This document shows, piece by piece, positions 44,043 through 50,140 of a DNA stretch of 64,000 nucleotides. How positions within the stretch are numbered: position 1 is the first letter of the stretch; each line of letters begins with the position of its first letter. The stretch spans positions 2,914,001-2,978,000 of the forward strand of contig NZ_LR746496.1 in assembly GCF_902729405.1 (NCBI RefSeq), given 5' to 3'. The notes under the pieces were generated by a model, which was not told where the DNA came from, did not search any database, and worked only from the letters and a program-made list of their open reading frames with translations. Source of the stretch: Acididesulfobacillus acetoxydans (GTDB lineage: Bacteria > Bacillota > Desulfitobacteriia > Desulfitobacteriales > Desulfitobacteriaceae). A program made the position numbers and the translations under genes.

Positions 44043-44882
44043 TTAAGAATTTAAGAATTGCGGGTTTTCCTGCCAAAGGCCGCTGAGCCAGGCATACACT
44101 CCTTCTTCGGCTTTTCCCAGTTCACTTCCCTGCAGACCGGTTTGATCCAAGCCGGAAAGACGCTCCACCAAGGCGCTGCCGACGATGACACCCTCCACGG
44201 CCGGGGCCAAGCGTTCCACCTGTTCGCGGCTGCGCAAACCGAAGCCGACACAGCGGGGAAGACGCAAATCACTTCCCAAGCGGGCAATGAAATCCAGAAC
44301 CTCAGGCGCGATGCCCGACTCCCCGCCCGTGATCCCGTTCTTGGCCAAGACATAGACAAAGCCGCCCTCCGCCTCTTGCAAAGCTTCAATGTCTTCCGCC
44401 TCACTCGTCAGCGCGGCCATAGGAATAAAGGCCAGTCGGCGGCCCACCAGTTGTCCGGCCCTCTCCCGGAATACCCGCCCTTCCCGCCAGGGCAGGTCCG
44501 GCAGGATCAGACCGTCCACCCCCGCCTCCGCGGCTTCCCGCACGAAATCGTCCCAACCGTAACGTAAGAGGGGGTTCAGATAACTCATGAGGAGCAGGGG
44601 AGTCTCACGTTCCCGGCGAAAATCGCGCACCATGGCTAAGACCCGGCTCAGCCTCATCCCGGCTGCCAGAGCCCGGCCCCCGGCTGCCTGGATCACCGGC
44701 CCGTCGGCCATCGGATCACTGAAAGGCACTCCCAGCTCCAGGATATCGACACCCGCGTCGGCCAACCCGGACAGCCGGCGCAGGCTCGTTTCATAATCGG
44801 GATCCCCCGCCATTAAATAAGCTATCAGGCGGGTCAGGCCCCGGCCCGGGCGGGCAAAGGCCTCCTGCAATCTTTCACTCAT
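44043..44882 (-). CDS. trpA: Tryptophan synthase alpha chain
   Basis: 279 residues from ATG 44882, which overlaps the trpB stop (ATGAGTGA); the frame is open further upstream inside trpB, but that is a shadow. The enzyme releases indole from indole-3-glycerol phosphate. Catalytic glutamate is in [17 protein letters not shown] (near residue 50) and the aspartate in [23 protein letters not shown] and [12 protein letters not shown] follow. Last gene of the operon. Confidence 0.96.
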
Positions 44883-46200
44883 CTGAATCCCTCCTCGCGA
44901 GATAAGCGGACAGGGTCTCGACATCTTTGTCCCCTCTCCCGGATAAATTGACGACAATGACCTTTTCGCTGCCGAGCTCCGGCGCCAGCCTGACGGCATA
45001 GGCCAGAGCGTGGGCACTTTCCAGCGCGGGCAGGATGCCCTCGGTTTGGCAGAGTATTTCACAGGCCCGGACGGCTTCCTCATCCCCGACCCGCACATAC
45101 TCGGCCCTGCCGCTTTCTTTGAGATAGCTGTGCTCCGGACCCACCCCGGGGTAATCGAGACCGGCTGAGACGGAATGCGTGGGCAGGATCTGCCCGTCGT
45201 CATCCTGGAGCAAATAGCTGTAGGCCCCGTGCAGAACGCCCGGTTCGCCCAGACCCAACGTTGCCGCATGGCCCTTGGGTTCGTCCCCTTTTCCGCCGGC
45301 CTCCACCCCGATCAGGCGGACGGAGGGATCGCCAATGAAGGGATGGAAAAAGCCGATGGCGTTGCTCCCGCCCCCCACGCAGGCCACCAAGGCATCAGGC
45401 AGGCGGCCCAAAACCTTCAGAGCCTGTTCTTTAGTCTCCCGCCCGATCACGGCCTGGAAATTCCGCACCATGGTCGGGAAGGGATGGGGACCGGCCGCCG
45501 TGCCGAAACAATAAAACGTATCCTCGACATGGCTCACCCAATCGCGCAGGGCTTCATTGATAGCGTCTTTCAAGGTTTTAGAACCCTGGCTGACCGAGCG
45601 TACCTCCGCTCCCAATAAACGCATGCGCAGGACATTCAAACGCTGCCGCCGGATGTCCTCTTCCCCCATATAAACGATGCAGGACAAACCGAACAAGGCA
45701 CAGGCGGTCGCCGTGGCCACTCCGTGCTGCCCCGCTCCCGTTTCGGCAATAACCCGCGTTTTCCCCATGCGTTTGGCGAGCAGTACCTGGCCCAGCGTGT
45801 TATTGATTTTATGGGCCCCGGTGTGATTCAAATCTTCCCGCTTCAAGTAAATCCGCGCTCCGCCCAGCTGGGCGCTGAGACGCTCCGCGGCATAAAAGAG
45901 AGAGGGGCGCCCGACATATTCCCGCAGAAGCCGCCCAAACTCCTCTGTAAAAGCCGGATCTTGCTTTGCCTCCGCATATGCTTTTTCGACCTCGCGCAAG
46001 ACCGGGACCAGGGTCTCGGCCACGTAAGCTCCGCCGTACGGACCGAAGCGGCCCGGCCGCTCATCCCCAGCGGCCATCAGCGCGTGCCGGCTCTCACTCT
46101 TTACTTGGTCCTCTTTTTGCCCGCGCAGGCCACCCTTTTCTGTGAGGCTTTCCTTTTCCCCGGCGCTTTCCGGGACGCCGACGCTTTTTAGGACACTCAT
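44875..46200 (-). CDS. trpB: Tryptophan synthase beta chain
   Basis: 441 residues from ATG 46200, 6 nt after AAGGAGAG. PLP enzyme joining indole and serine. [19 protein letters not shown] marks the true core start; [19 protein letters not shown] holds the PLP lysine; [15 protein letters not shown] and [15 protein letters not shown] are the substrate and phosphate motifs. The first ~45 residues are a charged extension ([20 protein letters not shown]) not found in typical TrpB1 proteins. It follows trpD directly; no trpC or trpF lies between. Confidence 0.96.
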
Positions 46201-46299
46201 TTTTTCTCTCCTTTCCCACTCTTTCATCCGCTATCGCCGGTGAGACTCTCGCTTCTGAGGGGCTTCTTCGGTCGGGAGTGGTTCCCCTGACCGGCCCCT

Positions 46300-47325
46300 T
46301 TAAAGAGCCAAGCTCTTTGCACTTCCGGCTTGCAGGGCCTCCAGCTTACCCAAGGCCGCGCCTGAGTCAATGCTCTCGGCAGCCATTAGAATTCCTTCCC
46401 CGATGTTTCTCGCTTTGCCCGCCGCAAAAAGAGCCACGCCGGAGTTGAGGAGGACGACATCCCGTTTGGGTCCGGGCCTTCCTTCCAGGACCGCCAAAGT
46501 GTGACGGACATTTTCTTCAGGCCCTCCTCCCCGCAGCTCGACCGGAGAGCAGCGTGTCAGACCGTATTCCTCCGGTGTCAGGCGGAAGGGGAAAAATTTG
46601 TCCCGCTCGACCAAAATCGCCTGAGTGGCTGCCGTCAAGCTGACTTCGTCCAGACCGTCCTCTCCCACGACGACAATCGCCCGCTCCACCCCCAAAATCT
46701 GCAGGGCTTTAGCCAGCTTGGGCAAAAGAATGAGGGAAGACACCCCCAAGAGTTGGTAGGGCGCCTGAGCCGGGTTCAAGAGCGGGCCGAGCAGGTTGAA
46801 AATGGTCCGCACTCCCAACTCACGCCGGTGGGCAGCCACCTTGCCCAAGGCCGGATGGTATAAGGGAGCAAAGAGAAAAGCCATCCCTATCTCCCGCAGG
46901 TTAGCGGAACTCTCGCGCGGGCTTAGATCCAGCGGTACTCCCAGGGCCTCCAAGACATCGGCGCTGCCGCAGCGGCCTGAGGCAAAACGGTTGCCGTGCT
47001 TGGCCACCGGCACCCCCGCCCCCGCCACGACAAAGGCCGTCGTAGTGGAAATATTGAACGTTCCTCCCCCGTCTCCGCCCGTTCCGCAGGTGTCAACCGT
47101 CCCGGAAGGCGCCGGGATTCTCTCGCTCAAACTCCGCAGGACCCCGGCAAAGGCTGCTATTTCCTCCGCCGTCTCTCCTTTCAGCCTCAGCCCGAGAAGC
47201 AAGGCCCCGATCTGGGCCCCGGTCAGGTCCCCGGCCATGAGTTCCGTCATTACCCCGCCCGCCAGTTCGGCGGACAAATTTTCTCCCCGGCTCAGATTGT
47301 CCAAAGCCTCACGAATCGCACTCAT
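46300..47325 (-). CDS. trpD: Anthranilate phosphoribosyltransferase
   Basis: A 341-residue enzyme that transfers phosphoribose from PRPP to anthranilate. Motifs: DTCGTGGDGGGTFNISTTTA (PRPP site, near residue 80), KHGNRFASGRCGSADVLEALG, and VVGEDGLDEVSL. Normal length, not fused to TrpG. Lies 37 bases after trpG. Confidence 0.97.
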   Translation of the reverse strand: MSAIREALDNLSRGENLSAELAGGVMTELMAGDLTGAQIGALLLGLRLKGETAEEIAAFAGVLRSLSERIPAPSGTVDTCGTGGDGGGTFNISTTTAFVVAGAGVPVAKHGNRFASGRCGSADVLEALGVPLDLSPRESSANLREIGMAFLFAPLYHPALGKVAAHRRELGVRTIFNLLGPLLNPAQAPYQLLGVSSLILLPKLAKALQILGVERAIVVVGEDGLDEVSLTAATQAILVERDKFFPFRLTPEEYGLTRCSPVELRGGGPEENVRHTLAVLEGRPGPKRDVVLLNSGVALFAAGKARNIGEGILMAAESIDSGAALGKLEALQAGSAKSLAL

Positions 47326-47362: not shown

Positions 47363-48001
47363 TTAACCGTACTTTCGCTCCGGGCCGGGGGCGGCCGTGT
47401 TCCCCTCCACCACGCTCAGGAATGTTCGCAGGATCGTGTCCCCGTCCGGTGTCAGAATGCTTTCCGGGTGAAATTGCAACCCGTAAAACGGGTATTCCCG
47501 GTGTTCTATCCCCATAACCAGACCCTCTGCCGTTTGGGCCGTTATCGCCCACTGCGGACCGAGACTTTCCTTCTCCACCATCAGAGAATGGTAACGGCCC
47601 GCTTTAAACCCTTGTTCCAAGCCGGCGAACAGGCCCTCCCCGCAATGATAAACGGCAGATGCCTTCCCGTGCACTATCTCGGGCGCCCGGACCACTTGGC
47701 CGCCGAAAGCCATGGCCAGGGCCTGATGTCCCAGGCAAACACCCAAGATCGGCAGCGCTCCGCCGCCCCGGGCGGCCCTTTCCCCCAATTCTTGCACTAG
47801 TTCCAGGGATATGCCGGCTTCCGCCGGAGTGCAGGGACCCGGTGAAAGAATGATGCCGGCGGGTTTCTCTGCTAAAATCTCCGCGACCGTTCTTTCGTCG
47901 TTGCGCCAGACCCGCACCTCCTCTCCCCCCAGGCGTCCCAGAGCCTGAGCCAGGTTGTACGTGAAAGAATCATAATTATCGATCACCGTCAACAACTTCA
48001 T
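47363..48001 (-). CDS. trpG: Anthranilate synthase component II (glutamine amidotransferase)
   Basis: A 212-residue class I glutamine amidotransferase. IDNYDSFTYNLAQALG begins the protein, the catalytic cysteine is in GVCLGHQALAMAFGG (near residue 88), and FHPESILTPDG carries the catalytic His-Glu. It supplies ammonia to TrpE and could also serve PabB, since no pabA is seen. Its start overlaps the end of trpE by 26 bases. Confidence 0.95.
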   Translation of the reverse strand: MKLLTVIDNYDSFTYNLAQALGRLGGEEVRVWRNDERTVAEILAEKPAGIILSPGPCTPAEAGISLELVQELGERAARGGGALPILGVCLGHQALAMAFGGQVVRAPEIVHGKASAVYHCGEGLFAGLEQGFKAGRYHSLMVEKESLGPQWAITAQTAEGLVMGIEHREYPFYGLQFHPESILTPDGDTILRTFLSVVEGNTAAPGPERKYG

Positions 48002-49712
48002 CCACCGCTTTCATCAAAGCCATCGCCTTCTGGAGCGTTTCCGCATACTCTCTTTCCGGCTGAGAGTCGTAGACTATTCCCCCGCCGGCTTGGACATTTA
48101 CCGTATCCCCGCGAACCTGCAAAGTGCGAATGGTGATGCAGAAATCGACATCCCCGTTCCAGCGCGCGATCCCCAGGGCGCCACCGTACGCTCCTCTGCG
48201 TTCAGGCTCCAATTCCTGCAAGATTTCCATGGCGCGGACTTTGGGAGCACCGCTCAGAGTACCGGCCGGAAAAACCGCTTTCAGAGCCGAAAGACCGTCT
48301 TCCCCCCGGCGCAATTCTCCTTCTACGGTGGAGACGAGATGCATGACATGGGAGAAGCGCTCCACCTTGGCATATTGACTGACCTTGACACTGCCGCAGC
48401 CGGCTACCCGCCCGATGTCGTTCCGCCCCAAATCCACCAGCATGGCGTGTTCGGCGTTCTCCTTGGCATCGAGGCGCAATTCCTTTTCCCTGGCTTTATC
48501 GACCGCTTCACTGGGACCCCGCGGCCTGGTCCCGGCAATCGGGCGGGTTATCACGCGCTTTCCCAGCGTGGAGACGAGGAGCTCGGGAGAACTTCCGACC
48601 AAAGTCTCCTTCTCTCCCTCCAAATAAAACATATAGGGGGAAGGATTAAGGAGCCGCAGCCTTTCATAAATCCGCCAAGGGCTGGCTTTCGCCCGGCGGG
48701 AAAAGCGCTGGGAGAAAACCCCCTGAAAAATATCTCCCGCCCGGATGAATTCCTGAATCCGGCGAACCTTCTCCAGATAAGAAACGCGGTCCATGTTGCT
48801 CCGCCAAGGCTCAGGCGGCTTTTCCTCCCGGGGAGGACCCGGGACCGGCCCACCCGCCTCCGCCGGCCGCACCGGTTGTCTCTCAAGTGCCGCCCCCCGC
48901 GGTCCACCGGCAAGCGATCCCTCAGCCGGCAGTATCGGTTCTCCCCGTTCGGGCGGCGCCGGTTCTTCCGCGAACTGTACCCCTACGGGCTGTTTAGATC
49001 CTTCGGGAGAGGGTATTTCCCTCGCCTCCGAAGAGCAGCCCCCCTCCCGGGAGCCAGACACACCCCGTCCGGGGATTTTCAGGTCCGGCCCAGAGTTTGT
49101 TTCGTCTTGGTCTATTCCCGCGCTCCCGAGAAAATCCGTGATCGCGCGACCCCAGCCGGCAAGGAGGTCCTCCGCTCCGGCCCTTGTCTGCGCGAATACT
49201 TCCAAAACCAGGCGGTCCTCTTTGGGCAGCCAAATAATATTCACCGGGCAGGCGCGGAAGAAATACGAGGGTGCGGCCGCGGTAGACCGGGGTTTTTGCC
49301 AGACAAGCCCCCACTCGTAATCAAAATAGCCGATCAGTCCGCTCTCCAAAGCGGGGGCGCACGTTCCCCCGCCGCAGGGCTGACAGTTCCGGCGCCAGGC
49401 CCGAAGAAATTCCCTCAGTTCCTCGAGCGGATCGTGTCCCGGCCGGTATTTACCTGTCACCGGCCAGCCTTGGCCGAACCCCAGATACGAGCGTTCGTGC
49501 TCGCGTTCCTGCCCTTCCAGGACGAACCGGCAGGGCATTCCCAACCGCTCTCCCAACCGGGCCAGCTGCAAAATTCCCGCTTCCGGCCGGAACTTGGCAC
49601 TGATTGAGCCCCATTCCTGACTTGCCGCAAACACTTTTGTGCTCAGCTGTTCCAACTCCTGACTTGCGAGCAGCACCTTTCTCCTCACCTCAGCTTTCTC
49701 TCCCGGCATCAT
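47976..49712 (-). CDS. trpE: Anthranilate synthase component I
   Basis: About 578 residues from ATG 49712. The frame is open up to 49784, but that stretch is the leader terminator. The chorismate-binding C-terminal half is complete: IFQGVFSQRFSR, NPSPYMFYLEGEKETLVGSSPE, RPIAGTRPRG, LVDLGRNDIGRV, and GTLSGAPKVRAMEIL. Between the N-terminal domain and this half lies a linker of about 100 residues rich in Gly, Pro and Glu (about 225-325), absent from ordinary TrpE. The site equivalent to the tryptophan-feedback LLES motif reads FVLEGQ. The linker encodes no recognised domain. Confidence 0.93.
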   Translation of the reverse strand: MMPGEKAEVRRKVLLASQELEQLSTKVFAASQEWGSISAKFRPEAGILQLARLGERLGMPCRFVLEGQEREHERSYLGFGQGWPVTGKYRPGHDPLEELREFLRAWRRNCQPCGGGTCAPALESGLIGYFDYEWGLVWQKPRSTAAAPSYFFRACPVNIIWLPKEDRLVLEVFAQTRAGAEDLLAGWGRAITDFLGSAGIDQDETNSGPDLKIPGRGVSGSREGGCSSEAREIPSPEGSKQPVGVQFAEEPAPPERGEPILPAEGSLAGGPRGAALERQPVRPAEAGGPVPGPPREEKPPEPWRSNMDRVSYLEKVRRIQEFIRAGDIFQGVFSQRFSRRAKASPWRIYERLRLLNPSPYMFYLEGEKETLVGSSPELLVSTLGKRVITRPIAGTRPRGPSEAVDKAREKELRLDAKENAEHAMLVDLGRNDIGRVAGCGSVKVSQYAKVERFSHVMHLVSTVEGELRRGEDGLSALKAVFPAGTLSGAPKVRAMEILQELEPERRGAYGGALGIARWNGDVDFCITIRTLQVRGDTVNVQAGGGIVYDSQPEREYAETLQKAMALMKAVDEVVDGDR

Positions 49713-49729
49713 ACGCCGGGATTCAAAGA

Positions 49730-49764
49730 AAAATAAAAAACCAGCACTCAAATGAGTGCCGGTT
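49730..49764 (-). terminator. trp attenuator terminator
   Basis: On the minus strand a 10-bp stem ACCGGCACTC/GAGTGCTGGT (49763-49754 with 49749-49740, one G-U pair, loop ATTT) is followed by TTTTTATTTTTC. It ends about 18 bases before the trpE start, so it must be bypassed for trp expression. A competing helix is possible between AGAUGAG (49786-49780) in the triplet array and CUCAUUU (49756-49750), which takes the loop and the top of the 5' arm. Confidence 0.85.
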
Positions 49765-49779
49765 TCATTACACCAGAAC

Positions 49780-49835
49780 CTCATCTCAGCTCAACTCAAC
49801 TGCGCGGAACCCTCATCTCTGCTAAAACTCAACTA
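49780..49835 (-). promoter_or_regulatory. Putative TRAP-binding site (proximal NAG array)
   Basis: On the transcript, five triplets (UAG, GAG, UAG, GAG, GAG), a 9-nt gap, then CAG, GAG, GAG, GAG, GAG. Within each block the spacers are 2 nt (one is 3). Allowing one degenerate triplet in the gap gives eleven registers, matching the 11-subunit TRAP ring of Bacillus. The 3' end of the array overlaps the presumed antiterminator. No mtrB gene is in the window. Confidence 0.7.
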
Positions 49836-49878
49836 GTTGTAAATTGTGACTTAGTAGTCAAACTGCGGACCGGCTTGC

Positions 49879-49950
49879 CTAACTCTAACTCTGACCTAAC
49901 TCTGACTCTGACCTAACTATAACTATAACTCTAACTCTAACTCTACACTA
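49879..49950 (-). promoter_or_regulatory. Second NAG-triplet array (distal), period about 6 nt
   Basis: About a dozen UAG or GAG triplets at mostly 6-nt intervals (3-nt spacers), built from tandem TTAGAG, TTATAG and TCAGAG hexamers. TRAP tolerates 2-3 nt spacers, so this could be a second binding site. Alternatively it is a microsatellite from which the proximal site evolved. Confidence 0.6.
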
Positions 49951-50112
49951 ACCGCTGAACTCGGAATCTGCTCCCCTAAGCTCGAATCGACTCTAAACCT
50001 CCAGCGAACTTTAAGCCCAATCCCTATGCTGCACCCTAAACCTGCTTACCCACTTAACCCTGATCCAAGCAAAGGCTGTTCGCTCCCAGTCAGTAACTCT
50101 CCCTACATCAAG

Positions 50113-50140
50113 TATATAGGAGAGGGGTCTTTTCCGTCAA
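50113..50140 (-). promoter_or_regulatory. Sigma-A promoter of the trp operon
   Basis: TTGACG (50140-50135) and TATATA (50118-50113) with 16-bp spacing, or TATACT with 18 bp. Predicted transcript start near 50106, giving a ~390-nt leader. Confidence 0.75.

Follow-up and report, generated by a model that had tools for sequence, protein, structure and literature searches.

How a bacterium outside the genus Bacillus controls its tryptophan operon, and what a leader with two triplet-rich stretches contributes to that control, are the questions raised by the region upstream of trpE in Acididesulfobacillus acetoxydans, which is probably an acid-loving, sulfate-reducing organism. In Bacillus, the ring-shaped protein TRAP wraps a string of GAG and UAG triplets and stops transcription. 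The window analysed here is a stretch of 64,000 nucleotides (NZ_LR746496.1, positions 2,914,001 to 2,978,000), and it comes from a genome represented by a single contig of 4.52 Mb; strain INE is described as having one 4.52-Mbp chromosome, with CEB3 as its nearest relative (PMC8982180). Peptococcaceae bacterium CEB3, the sole other genome of the genus in our collection, served as the sister strain for comparison. On the minus strand the leader is followed by trpE, trpG, trpD, trpB, and trpA, while aroH (chorismate mutase, 50571-50200) lies upstream of it. The features of the locus, in window coordinates, are as follows.

50111-50140, minus strand: sigma-A-type promoter TTGACG-18-TATACT, from a pattern scan; both boxes kept in CEB3
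50016-50104, minus strand: 5' part of the leader, common to CEB3, with irregular NAG triplets that are denser in CEB3
49854-50015, minus strand: 162-nt segment without counterpart in the CEB3 leader (by comparison with CEB3; an insertion here or a deletion there)
49879-49945, minus strand: distal array, a GTTAGA-like hexamer repeat of 11.5 copies with overlapping UAG/GAG, from repeat analysis and triplet scan
49812-49835, minus strand: proximal block 1, UAG-tt-GAG-ttt-UAG-ca-GAG-at-GAG, read directly; kept with changes in CEB3
49780-49802, minus strand: proximal block 2, CAG-tt-GAG-tt-GAG-ct-GAG-at-GAG, read directly; four GAG kept in CEB3
49780-49786, minus strand: antiterminator 5' strand AGAUGAG, part of the final two triplets; predicted to pair with 49756-49750
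49737-49766, minus strand: intrinsic terminator GAAACCGGCACUC-AUUU-GAGUGCUGGUUUU plus U tract, from a scan; conserved in CEB3
49750-49756, minus strand: CUCAUUU, 5' terminator arm and loop and also antiterminator 3' strand, from folding; kept in most related leaders
49702-49720, minus strand: small hairpin CCCGGC-GUAUGAU-GCCGGG, from the sequence, between terminator and ribosome-binding site
47976-49676, minus strand: trpE, inferred start most likely GTG 49676, preceded by AGGTGAGGAG
47363-48001, minus strand: trpG, above the TIGR00566 cut-off
46300-47325, minus strand: trpD, above the TIGR01245 cut-off
44875-46227, minus strand: trpB (open frame), above the TIGR00263 cut-off
44043-45269, minus strand: open frame with trpA, the domain at residues 147-374, above the TIGR00262 cut-off

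The first-pass annotation had described a sigma-A promoter and a terminator before trpE, and both were recovered by the scans (50140-50111 and 49766-49737). With the transcription start placed from the position of the promoter, the leader measures about 370 nt from promoter to terminator; promoter, proximal array and terminator are all kept in CEB3 despite the change of the region between them. An in-frame ATG at 49712 offers an alternative start for trpE, lacking a ribosome-binding site. The 6-bp G+C hairpin at 49702-49720 is the same in CEB3 except for one loop base, and is possibly a translational element. TrpE itself (47976-49676) contains a long spacer, roughly residues 190-290, where its alignment with relatives is poor or fails altogether, and this is probably why its score falls under the full-length TrpE equivalog cut-offs.

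The same annotation had read ten proximal NAG triplets in two blocks of five, and direct reading bears this out: nine (G/U)AG and one CAG follow each other at a period of 5 nt, bar one 6-nt step. The two blocks are separated by 9 nt, which departs from a strict spacing of 2-3 nt; this gap excepted, the array falls in the range of about 9-11 (G/U)AG triplets, 2-3 nt apart, before trpE. The proximal region scored higher than all of 500 dinucleotide shuffles, and the same shuffle test gave no array signal on the opposite strand of this region.

TRAP-type control had been proposed on the basis of these triplets, with the absence of an mtrB homologue named as the result that would speak against it. 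A search of the genome found one copy of mtrB (G000:C1:3196699-3196899, 132 bits), whose product lies above the NCBIfam MtrB equivalog cut-off. Its alignment to the TRAP of B. subtilis scores 97 bits, and it retains F32, E36, K37, D39, K56, and R58, the RNA-binding residues being taken as given in PMC3184956 and PMC4027176. The frame has 85 codons, and an internal ATG would yield 75 residues, the length of B. subtilis TRAP. We also observed that MtrB (L001, 1495-1752) ends at residue 73 when numbered as in B. subtilis and has Thr72, which in B. halodurans has been connected with rings of 12 subunits (PMC3184956). For anti-TRAP, the genome search returned no gene above the cut-off; a single sub-threshold match lies within a 379-aa frame and, judged from its place and length, is probably a DnaJ zinc finger.

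The proposal gained further support from the co-occurrence of arrays and mtrB among relatives, where we scored the trpE upstream regions for triplet chains against shuffles. All 16 scored relatives of the class with mtrB carry an array before trpE, as do 25 of 29 other mtrB-bearing genomes (24 by score, of which L167 was the weakest and barely scored, plus L186, whose array was missed by the start-site estimate and was added). A T-box was found at three of the four mtrB-bearing loci devoid of an array (L170, L171, L181). Conversely, 15 of 16 relatives without detected mtrB have no array, and T-boxes are present in three of these 15 (L194, L199, L202). The single exception, G043, has an array and no detected mtrB; since its assembly is 76% complete and a congener possesses mtrB, the lack of the gene may be no more than an assembly gap. 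Before trpE in anaerobic Bacillota, arrays and T-boxes thus take each other's place according to whether mtrB is present. The co-occurrence gives strong support for a function of the arrays, although related genomes do not count as independent observations. In one relative (G088, the genome with the Desulfoscipio geothermicus locus L080) an insert of ~150 nt divides the array before trpE (L175) into two blocks; its ends are inverted TTTGAAAAG / CTTTTCAAA, and it is perhaps a small mobile element that lies within the TRAP site.

We then asked of the leader whether its fold offers the alternative structures that had been suggested for it. In folded transcripts ending before the 3' terminator arm, AGAUGAG is predicted to pair with CUCAUUU at a probability of about 0.9-0.98, and once the 3' arm is transcribed the terminator prevails. 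The same fold switch appears in CEB3 and several other relatives and is less clear in L022 and L026. Furthermore, A/G-U forms the final 2-nt spacer in 17 of the 30 leaders, whereas among the remaining spacers it occurs 19 times in 161 (Fisher p = 3e-7); a need for UGAG to pair with CUCA would produce such a bias. When the pairing of terminator arm and array was tested automatically, comparison with shuffled arrays of the same composition gave no discrimination, and this test is uninformative because any array rich in G, A, and U can pair with CUC; the case for the antiterminator is therefore built on conservation and on the few leaders that were folded directly. By these predictions the leader can pair as a standard antiterminator/terminator switch overlapping the last triplets.

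Combined together, these results lead us to read the region, with a probability of about 0.9, as the leader of a TRAP-regulated trpEGDBA operon in which the proximal array would work the switch and the distal stretch would not be needed for it. When tryptophan is ample, the ring of TRAP, whose mtrB gene lies elsewhere in the genome, would wrap the ten proximal triplets of the nascent RNA and sequester AGAUGAG away from CUCAUUU, so that the terminator would form and transcription stop before trpE; that TRAP blocks the antiterminator is taken by analogy with B. subtilis (PMC4027176). When tryptophan is low, TRAP would be off the RNA, the antiterminator would form first and RNA polymerase would read through to trpE. 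The distal stretch might help in the capture of TRAP and would be dispensable for the switch. Counting against a TRAP site are the single CAG of the proximal array, its 9-nt gap and its ten rather than eleven triplets. It is very improbable that the triplets are incidental and that trp is instead under a T-box or a Trp-codon leader peptide: T-boxes do precede trpE in several relatives, but no T-box or trp leader model matched in the window, no tandem Trp codons were seen in the leader and the arrays track mtrB. The search of the window found no Rfam leader of any kind, the T-box (RF00230) included, and a T-box leader was rejected for want of a match.

The distal stretch required separate consideration. 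The first-pass annotation had counted about a dozen triplets at a period of roughly 6 nt; the period of 6 stands (17 nt fits too), while the count holds only when CAG and irregular spacing are admitted, as the longest strict (G/U)AG chain with 2-3-nt spacers has five triplets. Shuffles of the same composition scored equally high in 8 of 500 cases. The suggestion that the distal array arose by duplication of the proximal one was discarded, since the period is 6 rather than 5, the sequence is different and the hexamer repeat falls inside the 162-nt segment 50015-49854 that is absent from CEB3. A search of the genome found no second copy of the distal segment. Even so, the leader as a whole is rich in triplets: its 377 nt contain 40 (G/U)AG, overlaps included, and 12 CAG, compared with 18.6 (G/U)AG expected from base composition, and about 30 non-overlapping (G/U)AG form a chain of 265 nt, the highest number of the compared set. 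Other long leaders have 23 (L186), 22 (L022), 19 (CEB3, L037), and 18 (L024 and L178) non-overlapping triplets; several relatives have 15-23, most mtrB-bearing leaders having 8-12. Over-long triplet sites are a recurring variant in this clade.

In the distal stretch the leader has probably undergone a lineage-specific expansion of simple sequence, and a microsatellite origin is likely because the genome contains several other short tandem arrays with AG. Intergenic AG arrays of 5-nt period occur at G000:C1:307680-307957, 1510091-1510208, 1760182-1760209, and 2016267-2016369 (L149, L150, L151, L218); they resemble TRAP sites by pattern and adjoin no tryptophan gene. One of them, made of about five repeats of GATAGATGAGGATAGACGAA, is flanked by the genes of a response regulator and a thymidylate-kinase-like protein. 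Pattern scans of the genome for further TRAP targets returned intergenic microsatellites and chance coding matches, with trpE the sole tryptophan gene, and arrays were found upstream of none of pabB, mtrB, and trpC.

Whether such an expansion is wholly neutral, leaving the proximal array to work alone, is in our estimate about an even bet. The arrays unlinked to trp elsewhere in the genome, the absence of the segment from CEB3 and a match to the TRAP pattern that is weak given the composition all fit a stretch with no regulatory role, but its period of 6 and its UAG/GAG content suit TRAP spacing, it lies on the RNA strand inside a TRAP leader, and triplet-rich upstream stretches recur among relatives. 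The distal array may help the growing transcript to catch TRAP. A stronger version, a tandem site which loads two rings, or where one ring is caught distally and then passed to the proximal array, we consider unlikely. TRAP binds RNAs with at least seven triplets (PMC4027176), and the roughly 30 triplets of this leader, along with the irregular upstream triplet cluster of the CEB3 leader, could accommodate such an arrangement; against it stand the strict distal chain of five, the 8 of 500 composition-matched shuffles that score as high as the distal stretch, and the sufficiency of 8-12 triplets in most mtrB-bearing leaders. If it were true, termination would be buffered when TRAP is scarce, in a lineage that has no anti-TRAP.

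TRAP attenuation as such is already known, and this leader is a further example of it, with an unusually long triplet region. As in the trpEDCFBA attenuation of B. subtilis, the RNA-contacting residues of MtrB are kept, (G/U)AG triplets stand 2-3 nt apart, the antiterminator strand lies within the last triplets and a terminator precedes trpE (PMC4027176). Unlike B. subtilis, which has eleven triplets, A. acetoxydans has ten, split by the gap, together with the extra distal triplet-rich stretch, and it has no anti-TRAP over the cut-off. The pathway genes are also distributed differently from trpEDCFBA: trpC and trpF (G000:C1:2986524-2988103; L223, L224) lie ~23 kb upstream of the trpEGDBA operon, outside the window, and inspection of the region upstream of trpC found no TRAP array, so that TRAP may leave these steps of the pathway uncontrolled. 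The trp leader of Bacillus halodurans, with 19 NAG triplets and a 12-subunit TRAP, shares with ours triplets beyond the need of one ring and Thr at TRAP position 72, whereas our leader has more triplets and residue 15 of our TRAP is Met, not Lys (PMC3184956).

Close counterparts are also found in Desulfotomaculum relatives, Moorella, heliobacteria, and Pelotomaculum, which likewise combine mtrB, an array and a terminator before trpE; their leaders differ in having mostly 8-12 triplets in one or two blocks and, in heliobacteria, a UUCG terminator loop. A collection of species-level genomes gave 328 mtrB-like matches, and most of the 80 listed are in non-Bacillus Bacillota. The emphasis of the first-pass annotation on a TRAP leader outside Bacillus was therefore correct, though not new in kind, since triplet leaders and mtrB occur widely among anaerobic Bacillota. 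Reviews of trp regulation by Gutierrez-Preciado (2007) and Merino (2008) reportedly noted TRAP outside Bacillus; a search of the open-access literature, with subscription papers outside its range, found no paper on TRAP leaders in these anaerobes. TRAP very probably governs trp in A. acetoxydans, and the natural leaders that have 15-30 triplets, this one the most, offer material on which register a ring adopts when its site is over-long and on whether extra triplets matter.
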